Below, piece after piece: positions 3,026-13,152 of a stretch of DNA of 27,072 nucleotides (position 1 is its first letter; each line of letters begins with the position of its first letter). Location: IMG/VR virus record IMGVR_UViG_3300049734_000358, positions 1-27,072 of that record, one strand, 5' to 3'. This DNA is from a virus. The notes under the pieces are model-generated. The model did not search any database and was not told the DNA's origin. It was given only the letters and a program-made list of their open reading frames with translations. Position numbers and translations under genes: made by a program.

Positions 3026-3184
3026 TCACGGCCACTTGCCCATCTCCACCGCCAGCAGCAACAGCAGCTTGCGGCGCTGGTCTTCCTCGAGCGCCAGGAG
3101 GAATTGCTCGCGCTCGTCGCGCTCGGTGTCGAGGAAGAGCTCCAGCAGCACCAGCGCCTCGAGGTCCTGTTCGATGTCGATCAT
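3026..3184 (-). CDS. Hypothetical small acidic helical protein (52 aa)
   Basis: The start at 3184 overlaps the preceding stop as ATGA, and a purine-rich GGGGGG lies just upstream inside the previous gene. The protein is almost entirely charged helix with repeated Leu (LEALVLLELFLDTERDERE, then RRKLLLLLAVEMGKWP), consistent with a small coiled-coil or helical-hairpin protein. There is no recognisable family. It is one of eight consecutive overlapping small genes. Confidence 0.6.
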   Translation of the reverse strand: MIDIEQDLEALVLLELFLDTERDEREQFLLALEEDQRRKLLLLLAVEMGKWP

Positions 3185-3396
3185 TCCCAGCCCCCCAGCC
3201 AGCGCACGATGTCGCCTTTGTTGGAAACGCCGCGCCCGCGATAGAACCAGTTCTTGGTGCCGCTGTTTGGGTAGTAGTGCAGCGACACCGAGCGGGTGTT
3301 GATCTTGATGGTGAAGAGGCTGCCCTGGCGCTTGGCGATCTGGATGGCGCAATAGAGCATCTCATCGAGCAGTGCGTTGGCTTCGTCCTTGGTCAT
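3181..3396 (-). CDS. Hypothetical protein (71 aa)
   Basis: The start MTKDEANALL at 3396 is chosen because it overlaps the preceding TGA as ATGA and has AACCTGGAG at 3405-3413. An N-terminal helix (residues about 3-22) is followed by an alternating strand segment (FTIKINTRSVSLHYY) and an aromatic, basic tail ending WLGGWE. No family is recognised. The AACCTGGAGAAA that acts as its leader is at the same time the coding sequence for Asn-Leu-Glu-Lys near the end of the gene before it. Confidence 0.7.
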   Translation of the reverse strand: MTKDEANALLDEMLYCAIQIAKRQGSLFTIKINTRSVSLHYYPNSGTKNWFYRGRGVSNKGDIVRWLGGWE

Positions 3397-6209: not shown

Positions 6210-6784
6210 ACATGGTAGGCGCTCACGGCGTCACCGCTCACGAGCGATTTGTTTGCCCTATTGCCGGCGACAAAGTCGCACCAGGAATTCCACCAATGAC
6301 GCGCACCGCCGGTTGCGCTGCAAAGTGCAACATAATCGGCGATTTTCTTGCGCTTTGTCTCAGGCTTGACGCTTTTCGCCAGCTTGAAAGCGCTTTCCGC
6401 CAAGCCAAGCCGCCTAAGATTGTGCGTGTCCAAACAGGCGACCTCCAGGCCGACTATCTGGGCGATGAAGCTAGCTTTCACTATCCCCAGGCCGGGAATA
6501 TTCGACAGCACATCCACCGCGCCGACGACGTCGTTGACACGCACCGCTTCACTCACTGCGGCGAAAATGACTTCCTTGTGTGCCACCGCGTAGGCGTAAC
6601 CACCGCGCTTCGATCCAAAGAGGTATTTGGAATTCTCGCCGTTCTCGCGAATGTCGCGCATTTGATTGGCGACACTTTGGAGCGGCTGCTGGATGGTGCA
6701 CAGGACAAAGGCGACGATGTCGACAAGCCCGTTTGGATCGCGCAATGCGTGTGTGCGCATTAACGGCATATCGCGGTCATACAT
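6194..6784 (-). CDS. HhH-GPD DNA glycosylase-like protein (196 aa)
   Basis: The helix-hairpin-helix core is visible: IPGLGIVKASFIAQIVG (residues about 95-111) followed by LDTHNLRRLG (118-127), matching the LPGVGRKTA...VDTH pattern of endonuclease III-type base-excision glycosylases. The Asp of LDTH is the conserved catalytic Asp. By eye the Lys of bifunctional enzymes is replaced by Val, with a Lys one position later. It lacks the Cys cluster of endonuclease III. The C-terminus (WWNSWCDFVAG, then VSAYHVACL) is unlike cellular enzymes. Start 6784 is supported by AACCTGGAG at 6793-6801. It is read first on the leftward arm. It could remove or help make a modified base; the substrate is unknown. 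Confidence 0.75.
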   Translation of the reverse strand: MYDRDMPLMRTHALRDPNGLVDIVAFVLCTIQQPLQSVANQMRDIRENGENSKYLFGSKRGGYAYAVAHKEVIFAAVSEAVRVNDVVGAVDVLSNIPGLGIVKASFIAQIVGLEVACLDTHNLRRLGLAESAFKLAKSVKPETKRKKIADYVALCSATGGARHWWNSWCDFVAGNRANKSLVSGDAVSAYHVACLS

Positions 6785-6792
6785 GATTTGCT

Positions 6793-6801
6793 CTCCAGGT
6801 T
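6793..6801 (-). promoter_or_regulatory. AACCTGGAG start-associated motif, copy 7
   Basis: Exact copy, 8 bases before the ATG at 6784, just downstream of the CCGTTACA/TGTAACGG inverted repeat. Confidence 0.65.
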
Positions 6802-6805
6802 TAAT

Positions 6806-6826
6806 CCGTTACATTCCTTGTAACGG
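6806..6826 (-). promoter_or_regulatory. CCGTTACA/TGTAACGG inverted repeat
   Basis: Perfect 8-bp arms (6806-6813 and 6819-6826) with a 5-base loop TTCCT, four bases upstream of AACCTGGAG copy 7. Probably an operator controlling the leftward arm. Confidence 0.6.
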
Positions 6827-6907
6827 TTTTGCTGGAGATTGCAAGCGAAAAACGTGTTTAAGCGTGAAAAAGTGTGCTGTCGGGATTCAATGAAATCAAT
6901 GACTTAG

Positions 6908-7107
6908 GAGAGCACAAACATTGCTCGAAAAACGGCCTTGTGCTCTCGCTTGTGCTCTCGCTTGTGCTCTCATGTGCTCTCGGCTTTGTGCTCTCTTAAG
7001 TGTTTGATTTCATTCAATGTCGAGAGCACAAACTTTTATGTGCTGAGCACAAACCATGGCACGAGAGCACAACATTCGGGTGCATATACTATGCACGTTG
7101 TGCTCTC
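6908..7107. repeat. Iteron-like array of TTGTGCTCTC units
   Basis: Forward TTGTGCTCTC at 6938-6947, 6950-6959, 6962-6971, 6986-6995 and 7098-7107; ATGTGCTCTC at 6972-6981; inverted GAGAGCACAA at 6908-6917, 7022-7031 and 7063-7072; a degenerate CTGAGCACAA at 7043-7052, part of TGTGCT-G-AGCACA (7039-7051). The first three forward copies are spaced exactly 12 bases apart. Such clustered direct and inverted short repeats are typical of initiator- or repressor-binding sites. Confidence 0.8.
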
Positions 7108-7108
7108 G
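7062..7108. repeat. Nested 47-bp palindrome
   Basis: Outer perfect 12-bp arms CGAGAGCACAAC (7062-7073) and GTTGTGCTCTCG (7097-7108) enclose an inner perfect 7-bp palindrome GTGCATA-tac-TATGCAC (7080-7096). The outer arms are two members of the iteron family facing each other. Confidence 0.75.
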
Positions 7109-7146
7109 GAGGCGCGACTCGCCGCGCACCCTCCTATTATTCCCGG

Positions 7147-7169
7147 CGGTGGAATCGGAAATTCCGCCG
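7147..7169. repeat. Imperfect stem-loop
   Basis: CGGTGGAAT (7147-7155) and ATTCCGCCG (7161-7169) pair with one mismatch (a possible G-U pair) around a 5-base loop. Confidence 0.35.
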
Positions 7170-7181
7170 TGTCAAGTCGAG

Positions 7182-7204
7182 CTCCTGACAAGCACTGTCA
7201 GGAG
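7182..7204. repeat. Perfect 9-bp stem-loop
   Basis: CTCCTGACA (7182-7190) and TGTCAGGAG (7196-7204) with a 5-base loop agcac. No T tract on either side. Confidence 0.55.
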
Positions 7205-9642: not shown

Positions 9643-10247
9643 TGATGGCTGAAGGCAGTACCTACACCACAAGCGGCCCGCAGGGGTCCAGTTGGAAGCG
9701 CAACGCGCAGGGCAACCGAACGTCGGCCATCCACGGAAAGACCACCAAGGGCGGCGGCAAGAAGGCCGCCTCGAGCGGCGGCAAGAAGAAATCGACGTCG
9801 CCCTACAAGATATCGCCGGTAAAGACGGCATCGACGCCGCGCCGCGACATGACGTCGCCCGATCTCGCGCCGTCGCCGAACCCTTATGCAGCCAACAGCC
9901 CGGTCGGCCCCGGCCAGGGCCGCACCATGCCGGGGCCGGTGGGTCCGGTATTCGAGCCGGGGGGCGGCGCGCCGCCGAATCTCGGCCTGGGCGCGTTCAA
10001 GCCGGGGCTCGGCAATCTCTACACACCGCCGAACGAGCTCGCCGACGCCCGCCTGCGGGGCAACCCGGTGCCGATGAACCCGGCGCTGAGCCAAGCGTCG
10101 GTGCTGGCGTCGACGCCGCCGGCACTGCAGCAGGATCCGGTGGCCAACATGCTGAAGGGCATGGACAAATATGCCGGTGGCAGTGCTCCCTTCGGCTTCA
10201 ATCCAGGGGCGATCTTCTTTGATCCGTCGAGGGCGCGCCGCTGGTGA
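9642..10247 (+). CDS. Low-complexity, probably disordered protein (201 aa)
   Basis: Start chosen at ATG 9642, which overlaps the previous stop and has GGAAGG 6 bases upstream; ATG at 9639 and 9645 are close alternatives. The N-terminal 60 residues are Lys/Gly/Ser-rich (HGKTTKGGGKKAASSGGKKK); the rest is Pro/Gly/Ala-rich with NPYAANSPVGPGQGRTMPGP and a C-terminal patch (GGSAPFGFNPGAIFFDPSRA). No fold or function recognised. The position directly before the small terminase may hint at a packaging or virion role. Confidence 0.65.
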   Translation: MMAEGSTYTTSGPQGSSWKRNAQGNRTSAIHGKTTKGGGKKAASSGGKKKSTSPYKISPVKTASTPRRDMTSPDLAPSPNPYAANSPVGPGQGRTMPGPVGPVFEPGGGAPPNLGLGAFKPGLGNLYTPPNELADARLRGNPVPMNPALSQASVLASTPPALQQDPVANMLKGMDKYAGGSAPFGFNPGAIFFDPSRARRW

Positions 10248-10729
10248 AGAAGACGTTCGGTTCGCATAATCTGGCCGCCGCTCGAGCGGCGCGCACCGGG
10301 CAGCGGAAGGAGGCGCTCACCGACAAGGAGCGTGTCCTGGTGCAGGGGCTGGCTGGCGGCCTGTCGAAGGCTGCAGCGTTTCGGAAGGCCGGCTATGCCA
10401 GCGGAGTGCGGCAGGACGAGGTGCTCGGCCGCGCGCGGCTGGTGCGCTACCTGGACGAGCTCAGGAAGCGACAGGTCGAGCGCCTCGATTATTCGATTGA
10501 GAACCTCTGTGCTCGACTCGAACACATTGCTTTTTCTGCGGTTGACGAGGGCCAGTACGCTGCGGCGGTGAGCGCTGTCATGGGCATCGCCAAGATGATG
10601 GGCCATCTCGCCGACAAGACCGAGATCGAGATGCACATCATCTCCAAGCCGGCCCGGGAACCCACGAAGGAGATCACGCTGTCGCCGGAGGAGTGGCAGC
10701 GTCAGTTCGCGCCAAAGGCGATCCAATGA
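10244..10729 (+). CDS. terS: Terminase small subunit (161 aa)
   Basis: The small terminase binds phage DNA and hands it to the motor. Residues about 25-70 (EALTDKERVLVQGLAGGLSK, then AAAFRKAGYASG) follow the Terminase_2-type HTH pattern LTxKxxxFVxxxxxGxSxxxAAxxAGY. Helices up to residue 125 fit an oligomerisation region, and the tail PEEWQRQFAPK is a plausible large-subunit contact. GTG at 10244 overlaps the previous stop as GTGA. The large subunit lies 1 kb downstream, separated by three small genes. Confidence 0.8.
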   Translation: MKKTFGSHNLAAARAARTGQRKEALTDKERVLVQGLAGGLSKAAAFRKAGYASGVRQDEVLGRARLVRYLDELRKRQVERLDYSIENLCARLEHIAFSAVDEGQYAAAVSAVMGIAKMMGHLADKTEIEMHIISKPAREPTKEITLSPEEWQRQFAPKAIQ

Positions 10730-10935: not shown

Positions 10936-11300
10936 GCGAGGTTCCCTGCAACGGCTGCACCGCCTGCTGCAAGAACGATGTCATCTTCCTGCGGGATGAA
11001 GACAACCCCAAGGACTACGACACGGTGTGGACGATCCACCGCTCGACCGGCATCGGTGGTCTCGCGCTTAAACGCAAGGAGAACGGGCACTGCATCTACC
11101 TGATCGAGGACAAGGGCTGCTCGATCCACGGTCGCGCGCCGTACAATTGCCGCATCTTTGACTGCCGCAAGACGTGGCGTGATTACCTGTCGCTTCCCAG
11201 GCCACAGCGCCGCCGCCTGATGAAGGAGCTGCAGCGCCAGCACCTCTTCGGCGGCGAGGTCGTCGCGGCCGCCAAGGCACGGATGCACACGCTCGAATGA
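10932..11300 (+). CDS. YkgJ-type cysteine-cluster protein (122 aa)
   Basis: Eight cysteines lie in the pattern CNGCTACC near the N-terminus, then HCIYL, GCSIHGRAPYNCRIFDC. This is the signature of the YkgJ/UPF0153 family, predicted to bind Fe-S or zinc; bacterial members have unclear roles. A basic helical tail follows (RPQRRRLMKELQRQ). It sits between terS and the HNH gene. Start at 10932 is chosen for ATGA overlap; upstream in-frame sequence lies in the previous gene. Confidence 0.8.
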   Translation: MSEVPCNGCTACCKNDVIFLRDEDNPKDYDTVWTIHRSTGIGGLALKRKENGHCIYLIEDKGCSIHGRAPYNCRIFDCRKTWRDYLSLPRPQRRRLMKELQRQHLFGGEVVAAAKARMHTLE

Positions 11301-11749
11301 AACCGACCAATCAGATATTTTTCAATGACGTCGTGCTCGCGCACGACAGCGACGAGTGCTTGTTGTGGCCCTTTTCGACGACGCAGAAGGGTTACCCGCA
11401 CATGTATTCGGCGGGTCGGTGGAAGCTGGTGACCCGCCGCGTCTGCGAGCATTTTCACGGCCCCGCGCCGAGCCCCAGGCACCATGCCGCGCATTCGCAT
11501 CGGGAGAACAAGCTCTGCGTGAACTGGCGGCATTTGCGGTGGGCGACACCAAGCGAGAACGAGCAGGATAAGATCGCGCACGGCACCTACCAGTTCGGCG
11601 AGCGGAACCCGATGGCGAAGCTGACGGCTGAACAGGTGATCGAGATTCGCGGTGCTACCGGAAGCCACCGCGAAATCGCCGAGCGTTACGGCGTCGGTAG
11701 GGAGGCTGTCAGCAAAATCAAACGCGGCGAGCGGTGGCAGACGGTATGA
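11297..11749 (+). CDS. HNH endonuclease, probably free-standing homing type (150 aa)
   Basis: Residues about 45-95 carry an HNH_3-like site: RRVCEHFHG, then AAHSHRENKLCVNWRHLRWAT and PSENEQDK, with the His/Asn residues of a beta-beta-alpha metal finger. The C-terminus (LTAEQVIEIRG, then SHREIAERYGVGREAVSKIK) is a helix-turn-helix of the kind that positions homing endonucleases on DNA. Such genes commonly sit beside or inside terminase genes. It overlaps the 3' neighbour terL by 4 bases (ATGA). Its base composition is like the surrounding phage genes, in contrast to the terL segment that follows. Confidence 0.85.
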   Translation: MKPTNQIFFNDVVLAHDSDECLLWPFSTTQKGYPHMYSAGRWKLVTRRVCEHFHGPAPSPRHHAAHSHRENKLCVNWRHLRWATPSENEQDKIAHGTYQFGERNPMAKLTAEQVIEIRGATGSHREIAERYGVGREAVSKIKRGERWQTV

Positions 11750-13152
11750 ATATAACTGTTCGCTTAGGTTTTGTTCCTCAACCAGGGCCTCAAACAGCTT
11801 TTATTAAGTGTCCTGCCGATATTGTAGTGTATGGAGGCGCGAGAGGTGGTGGTAAAACCTATGCTAGTCTAGGAGAGTTCTGGATACATGCAGAAGATCA
11901 TGGCGAAAATGCGATAGGGTTGATTGTTAGACGTACAAGAGAGGATTTGAAAGACACTATTGCTACAGCTATTAGAATGTACGGCAACGCAGCTAAATAT
12001 TCAGAAAAAGGCAATATGTTTAGGTTCCATAACGGAGCTAGACTTAACTGCGCTTACCTTGAAAATGACAGAGATGCTGAAGCATATCAGGGATGGTCAC
12101 TTACGAGAGTGTACGTTGAGGAGTTGACGCAATTTCCATTGCCTGATCCTGTTTTTAAATTACTTGCTACTCTCCGTTCGTCAGCTGGCATCAAGCCGCA
12201 GATGCGGTGTACGTGCAATCCAGGGGGTAGCGGTCATGGCTGGGTCAAGGAGTGGATCATCGATCCTGGCGAATACGTGCTCACCGTCGATGACGAATCG
12301 CAGCTTGTGCGCACATACATTCCAGCAAAGGTAGCGGACAATCCCGCCTTGCTGGCGAACGACCCTAACTACCTCAACCGCCTGAAGGCTGTGGGCTCGC
12401 CGGAACTGGTCCGCGCTTGGCTGCTCGGCGACTGGACGGTCATCGAGGGGGCCTTTTTCCCTGAGTTCAACCCACTTCGGCATGTGGTCGAGCCTTTCCA
12501 GATTCCAGAGCACTGGATCAAGTGGCGCGCCATGGACTGGGGCAGCGCCAAGCCGTTCTCGATTGGTTGGTATGCACATGTCCAGGACACCAAGATCCAC
12601 AACGGCGTGACCATGCCTCGAGGCGCTATCGTGCGCTACGCCGAATGGTACGGCTCGCTCAAGCCGAATGTCGGCCTCCAGCTGCCGGCTGAGAAGGTCG
12701 CGGCTGGCATAGTCTCCCGCGAAACGCATGATGGTCGGCGTGACAAGATTGCCTATGGCGTACTCGACCCCAGCGCTTTCGCGGTGATCTCCGGCCCGTC
12801 GGTGGCTGAGACCTTGCAGCGCGGCGGTGCCGCCTTCCGGCGCGCCGACAACACGCGGCGCTCGGTGGACAAGAAGATGGGCGGCTGGGATCAGGTCAGG
12901 AACCGGCTTGTCGGCGACGCCGACGGCAACGCCATGCTGTTCATCTTCTCGACCGGCAAGCACCTGATCCGCACGTTGCCGATGATGCAGCACGATTCCT
13001 ACAATCCCGAAGACCTCGATACCGAAGCCGAAGATCACGCGGTGGACGAATTGCGTTACTCGTGCCTCTCCAGGCCGTTCTACACGCGCAAGGAACGGAT
13101 CGAGAATAGGAATCCATACCTGATCAAAAACGTGTTCAAGCTGAAGGACTGA
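11746..13152 (+). CDS. terL: Terminase large subunit: packaging ATPase and nuclease (468 aa)
   Basis: The motor protein that cuts concatemers and drives DNA into the prohead. ATPase domain: Walker A GARGGGKT at residues 31-38, Walker B-like RVYVEEL at 121-127 and the coupling motif TCNPGG at 156-161. Nuclease domain (RNase H fold): first Asp in MDWG (Asp264), a second acidic site near LDPSAF, and DELRY near residue 435. Start MNITVRLGFV at 11746 is chosen for ATGA overlap with the HNH gene; a GTG at 11734 is possible. Codons 1 to about 146 are AT-rich with AGA, TTT and AAA codons, unlike the rest of the gene and its neighbours, while the protein remains intact. Confidence 0.93.
   Translation: MNITVRLGFVPQPGPQTAFIKCPADIVVYGGARGGGKTYASLGEFWIHAEDHGENAIGLIVRRTREDLKDTIATAIRMYGNAAKYSEKGNMFRFHNGARLNCAYLENDRDAEAYQGWSLTRVYVEELTQFPLPDPVFKLLATLRSSAGIKPQMRCTCNPGGSGHGWVKEWIIDPGEYVLTVDDESQLVRTYIPAKVADNPALLANDPNYLNRLKAVGSPELVRAWLLGDWTVIEGAFFPEFNPLRHVVEPFQIPEHWIKWRAMDWGSAKPFSIGWYAHVQDTKIHNGVTMPRGAIVRYAEWYGSLKPNVGLQLPAEKVAAGIVSRETHDGRRDKIAYGVLDPSAFAVISGPSVAETLQRGGAAFRRADNTRRSVDKKMGGWDQVRNRLVGDADGNAMLFIFSTGKHLIRTLPMMQHDSYNPEDLDTEAEDHAVDELRYSCLSRPFYTRKERIENRNPYLIKNVFKLKD
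11749..12183 (+). other. AT-rich foreign-looking segment of terL
   Basis: Counting bases at 11761-12180 gives 181 G+C of 420 (43%); the next 120 bases give 70 of 120 (58%). The change is abrupt, near codon 146. Arg codons are mostly AGA and third positions mostly A or T in this segment only. The left border coincides with the end of the HNH gene. The segment encodes both Walker motifs. It suggests replacement by a homologous piece from an AT-rich relative. Confidence 0.85.

Follow-up and report, generated by a model that had tools for sequence, protein, structure and literature searches.

An AT-rich, silently diverged end of a phage terL gene beside an HNH endonuclease gene, and similar tracts at other HNH-abutted gene ends

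Nuclease genes beside essential genes

In phage T4, the HNH nuclease MobA is encoded next to an essential gene that has itself been altered, and gene 60 carries a bypass element. The free-standing homing endonucleases SegF, SegG, and MobE of T-even phages are associated with marker exclusion and co-conversion (PMC2988022). In phage HEG islands, endonuclease genes border exchange near essential genes, including terL (Barth et al., 2023; PMC10448857). SNP density gradients have been reported beside mobile introns in fungal mitochondria, where co-conversion would require donors from outside the population and none was found (Repar and Warnecke, 2017; PMC5378118). Finally, engineered home-and-rescue gene drives couple a nuclease with a silently recoded part of the adjoining essential gene (PMC7968924).

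Here we analyze a 27,072-bp virus record, hereafter the window (mean GC 0.628), in which the gene for an HNH-family endonuclease, HNH-1, overlaps the start of terL. As with SegF, SegG, and MobE, a promoterless nuclease gene overlaps or abuts an essential gene, the neighboring sequence appears to go along with it, and the target is possibly distant from the insertion. Unlike in those systems, the gene end on the nuclease side is silently saturated and AT-shifted while the protein is kept, and the cutter is a candidate by sequence. We found no report of silent recoding of this kind in the literature searched. As beside the fungal introns, an endonuclease-bearing element adjoins coding sequence of unusual diversity and donors were not found, but the polymorphism gradients have their counterpart here in abrupt, saturated tracts beside free-standing phage HNH genes. 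HEG islands show high identity over 10 kb, whereas the present tract is short and of low DNA identity. As with T4 MobA and gene 60, an HNH nuclease gene adjoins an altered copy of an essential gene, and in a relative, L016, the target gene is interrupted by a hairpin; the window shows recoding and no insert, and bypass in L016 would be conjectural. The coupling of a nuclease with a silently recoded part of the adjoining essential gene is shared with the engineered drives, but here it is natural, and rescue and cutting are conjectural.

The AT-rich tract at the start of terL

The locus comprises the following features:

10244..10729, + strand: terS (phrog_51, E=3e-7)
11297..11749, + strand: HNH-1, HNH-family endonuclease of 150 aa with a C-terminal helix-turn-helix-like stretch and normal GC (phrog_59, E=3e-21)
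11746-13152, + strand: terL, 468 aa (whole protein: Terminase_6N, E=9e-16; phrog_979/phrog_2)
11746..12186, + strand: AT-rich, silently diverged tract, terL codons 1-147 (GC3 0.30, changepoint LR 99)
11833..11859, + strand: Walker A motif (GGARGGGKT) with the AT-type codons AGA, GGT, and AAA (sequence, alignment, and codon comparison)
12109..12123, + strand: Walker B motif (VYVEE), within the tract (sequence and alignment)
12187..13152, + strand: remaining terL, codons 148-468 (GC3 0.78, normal)

The GC3 changepoint in terL fell after codon 147, at nt 12187 (0.30 versus 0.78, likelihood ratio 99). GC content was 0.424 in 11746-12186, compared with 0.583 for 12187-12306 and 0.611 for the HNH gene (GC3 0.79), and no other 441-nt stretch of the window was as low as the tract, the runner-up elsewhere reaching 0.474. 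Its onset was abrupt at the ATGA overlap of the HNH stop and terL start (11746-11749), with a GC3 of 0.70-0.73 in the final HNH bins versus 0.15 in the first 20 terL codons. These values bear out the original prediction of an AT-rich terL start beside an HNH gene of normal composition, with the Walker A and Walker B motifs both inside the tract. The predicted left edge at the HNH/terL junction also held, but the start given for the segment, 11297, is that of the HNH gene, and the tract itself starts at 11746. An assembly chimera was ruled out, because two IMG/VR sequences from two other metagenomes (L002, L003) were 100% identical to the window over both tract borders; a third IMG/VR sequence (L019) matched the terL portion beyond the tract. 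A second low-GC stretch of the window lies among short ORFs at 6600-7200 (about 0.48-0.50).

HNH-1 carries the HNH endonuclease domain expected of a free-standing HNH homing endonuclease, according to its phrog_59 match; its Pfam HNH_3 match (E=1e-4, 22.1 bits) was slightly under the curated cut-off of 24.8, and its PDB match to the HNH homing endonuclease 1u3e was weak (E=0.29). Apart from the window phage, L016 was the only one among the relatives with HNH-1 upstream of terL, the others having another HNH gene or none at this place, with a terS-terL gap of 3 nt in L008 and 9 nt in L015, both HNH-less. This patchy distribution, together with a clean HNH insertion in L066 compared with L062, is that of a sporadic insertion. 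A packaging nuclease of the HK97 gp74 or GVE2 type was considered and rejected because the HNH gene is not a conserved, fixed partner of the terminase genes: the HNH genes are sporadic, belong to several families, and vary in both flank and strand relative to terL.

We compared the window with 85 terL loci, then with 75 more that were mostly distant; no similar DNA turned up in cultured phages. Relative to L004, the tract had 93% amino acid identity but only 24% identical codons among same-residue codons, while the rest of terL had 81% amino acid identity and 53% identical codons. The Walker A motif was invariant across the aligned relatives. Separate protein trees of codons 1-147 and 148-468 gave the same nearest relatives, L004 and L005, which goes against the original prediction at the protein level and rules out a foreign protein lineage for codons 1-147. 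Because both parts share these relatives, the tract is the same protein lineage written in other codons, and the proposed chimeric motor stands at silent sites only. The tract shared 49 codons with L007, compared with 35 expected by chance (P=0.0003); its DNA therefore descends from the terL clade of the window. As had been anticipated, relatives without HNH-1 have a GC-rich terL start. In another locus, L024, terL appears frameshifted near codon 314 (3353-3356; two tblastn pieces in different frames).

The second carrier of HNH-1, L016, has a 43-nt insert (3106-3148) that contains a strong 11-bp hairpin and falls precisely within the Walker A codons of its terL. The insert lies between Gly codons, shifts the frame, and is known from a single contig; it had no match in Rfam and has no counterpart in the window terL. 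A target of HNH-1 at the Walker A DNA would fit, because both carriers lack the usual DNA there, the window by recoding and L016, as seen in one contig, by insertion. The contig carrying L016 also contains a 23-nt tandem repeat array (L034, 3250-3602).

Tracts at other HNH-abutted gene ends

The most direct comparison came from L066 and its close sister L062, which has no HNH gene. In L066, an HNH gene is inserted immediately 3' of the terL stop, ahead of the next gene. Codons 1-407 of the two terL genes were 95% identical in DNA, whereas from codon 408 to the HNH insertion DNA identity fell to 67% with 95% protein identity: 58 of 61 residues matched, compared with only 11 of the 56 informative codons. 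Silent changes in this stretch were bidirectional, mainly from GC to AT (36:6, versus 13:16 outside). Since dS outside the tract was only 0.16-0.26, the L066 tract did not diverge in place after the split, and comparison of the two sequences indicates import together with the HNH gene or because of it. Active avoidance of the sister's codons was not significant in this pair (11 shared versus 13.1 expected, P=0.20).

Scanning for low-GC3 stretches across the terL loci yielded three strong cases, namely the 5' end in the window, codons 407-467 of L066, and codons 380-465 of L016. Each touches an HNH gene. These genes differ from one another, and both flanks of terL are represented: HNH-1 lies upstream in the window, another HNH gene directly downstream in L016 (4452-4850), and yet another beside the tract of L066 (1865-2359). 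Among 265 terL ends drawn from 133 representatives, the three most AT-shifted (lowest z-scores) all abut an HNH gene. A common origin of the L016 and L066 3' tracts was not accepted, the excess of shared codons being weak (P about 0.04). The fourth end in this census abutted by a sense HNH gene, the L016 5' end beside HNH-1, was not AT-shifted. It is a diverged tract all the same: compared with the nearest relative, L011, its codons from 1 to about 158 were mostly 33-64% identical, followed by a near-identical stretch, and this edge is close to that of the window (147). Alternatively, edges near codons 147-158 may mark a recombination site shared within a conserved block, because the terL genes of L008 and L009, which lack a sense HNH gene, break near codon 160. 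Outside terL, a small gene after the portal gene of L010 (6866-7401) has an HNH gene, related to the second HNH of L016, immediately next to its AT-rich last 14 codons, and this end may be a short fourth AT-rich case.

The association was also present in a set blind to GC, made of 80 loci gathered by HNH protein similarity alone. Taken together, the seven terL ends abutted by a sense HNH gene were AT-shifted compared with 221 controls (Mann-Whitney p=1.8e-4), and the three outside the discovery set (L259, L269, L272) gave p=0.003 against controls on their own. In 54 other HNH-abutting genes, some of which are perhaps ORFs rather than real genes, GC3 was lower at the near end (mean z -0.95 versus -0.23 at the far end; Wilcoxon p=0.004). 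A tract beside every HNH gene was ruled out by insertions that have none. Two loci differed in layout: in L291 (upstream of 2501), the gene preceding the HNH gene was AT-shifted at its far end (z -7.4) and not on the HNH side, and in L078 (747-870), terL codons 2-41 were AT-shifted (GC3 0.33 versus 0.73) with no adjoining HNH gene, possibly a footprint remaining after HNH loss.

Cultured phages gave a comparable picture at the portal gene (gene 8) of T7, which is abutted by the HNH gene 7.7. Codons 1-100 of T7 gene 8 (L189, 3411-3711) had 75-85% DNA identity, about half of their codons identical, and about 94-95% protein identity to the HNH-less phages Bas65 (JacobBurckhardt) and Yersinia phage Yep15, whereas DNA identity was 95-100% over codons 101-200, with an abrupt edge near codon 100. 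Bas65 and Yep15 are the same as each other over codons 1-100, the HNH-bearing phage HZ2R8 carries the T7 version of the gene 8 start, and Salmonella phage CHRF_10025, which has no HNH gene, falls in between. Among Kayfunavirus HNH genes, one type (Vec13, VIPECLMC06, SEA1f) adjoins a tract about 40 codons long, whereas those of EFA-1 and ST31 have none; in Klebsiella phage IME304, the difference is limited to about 20 ligase codons. Silent-divergence tracts beside HNH genes are common but not universal. Those of T7 and Vec13 are not AT-rich, the AT shift being observed only in GC-rich phages. A replaced tract beside an HNH gene was seen in L066/L062 and in T7; the window phage is without a close HNH-less sister, and its tract is read from composition and codons only. 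The predicted tie between segment and HNH gene is strengthened by the HNH-abutted 3' ends of L016 and L066 and by the replacement in L066 relative to L062.

Origin of the tracts

The tracts are linked to HNH genes, have sharp edges, and are saturated at silent sites with the protein kept, and in L066 the tract was imported relative to the HNH-less sister. Judging from these sequence patterns, it is somewhat probable that each is an HNH-linked, silently diverged allele of a gene end, brought in with the HNH gene by homing-type co-conversion. Free-standing phage endonucleases are known to co-convert their flanks (PMC2988022), and from this family we infer by analogy that the HNH protein may cleave terL, that homing may move the tract, and that the carried allele may be immune. 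The HNH gene and the adjoining terL end would move as a single linked unit. On co-infection of an HNH-bearing phage with an HNH-less relative, the nuclease would cut within the relative's terL, and repair would copy the HNH gene plus the donor's terL end, so the tract would begin at the HNH gene and end at the cut or past it. The carried terL end would have evolved apart until its silent sites were saturated, with AT-rich codons in GC-rich phages as the putative outcome, and its protein would have stayed constant because the motor is essential. Unlikeness to the uncut allele would both shield the carried allele and make repair continue through the HNH gene.

Because no search showed an AT-rich donor, and such a donor would be expected to bring an AT-rich HNH gene, contrary to the data, it is a serious although unproven possibility that HNH-linked alleles are shaped by selection or mutation, much like the recoded rescue in engineered drives. 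Phage HNH genes might even be natural home-and-rescue drives, in which selection silently recoded the end of an essential gene from the cut site to the HNH gene, giving a self-immune cassette that is copied whole; we put this forward only tentatively.

Ordinary mosaicism, in which recombination with an unsampled AT-richer relative replaced the terL end and HNH genes merely sit at recombination-prone junctions, seems unlikely but is the strongest rival. The breakpoint of L008/L009 indicates that terL is mosaic in this family without HNH genes too, and 41 of 377 HNH-less terL pairs combined a conserved protein with few shared codons, so that saturated silent sites with a conserved protein are by themselves not unusual. 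However, all terL genes at least 62% identical to that of the window were GC-rich along the entire gene, and no search revealed an AT-rich donor allele outside HNH-bearing phages. A pattern search for Walker A with AGA/AAA codons returned only the window phage, L007, and one terL at 32% identity. The HNH genes flanking the tracts are GC-rich right to the junction, which rules out an AT-rich donor that delivered the HNH gene as well, and AT-shifted ends associate with HNH genes.

A mutational footprint, with HNH nicking or cutting and error-prone repair raising adjacent mutation and purifying selection leaving silent changes biased from GC to AT, is less plausible still. Such a process has been proposed for fungal mobile introns (PMC5378118), and it would agree with the GC>AT to AT>GC counts in the three tracts (36:6, 93:7, and 43:5), which are not matched outside (13:16, 41:33, and 64:39). 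It is at odds with the abrupt edge and low outside dS of L066/L062 and with the unaffected HNH gene just over the junction. A role of AT-rich gene-end codons in initiating translation, or in coupling to the overlapping HNH gene, is very improbable: GC3 is slightly reduced at the terL starts of controls (mean z -0.51), but the tract extends over 147 codons, and two of the three strong cases lie 3' in terL.

Under homing-type co-conversion of a silently diverged gene end, HNH genes look as if they carry along the end of the neighboring gene in disguise. If this is right, a free-standing homing endonuclease would leave a readable footprint, the edge of which would mark the cut site and the essential target gene without biochemistry, and phages would hold a natural counterpart to the recoded rescue of gene drives. 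A shift in GC or codon usage within a phage gene may then be the footprint of an endonuclease rather than the result of transfer from another host.
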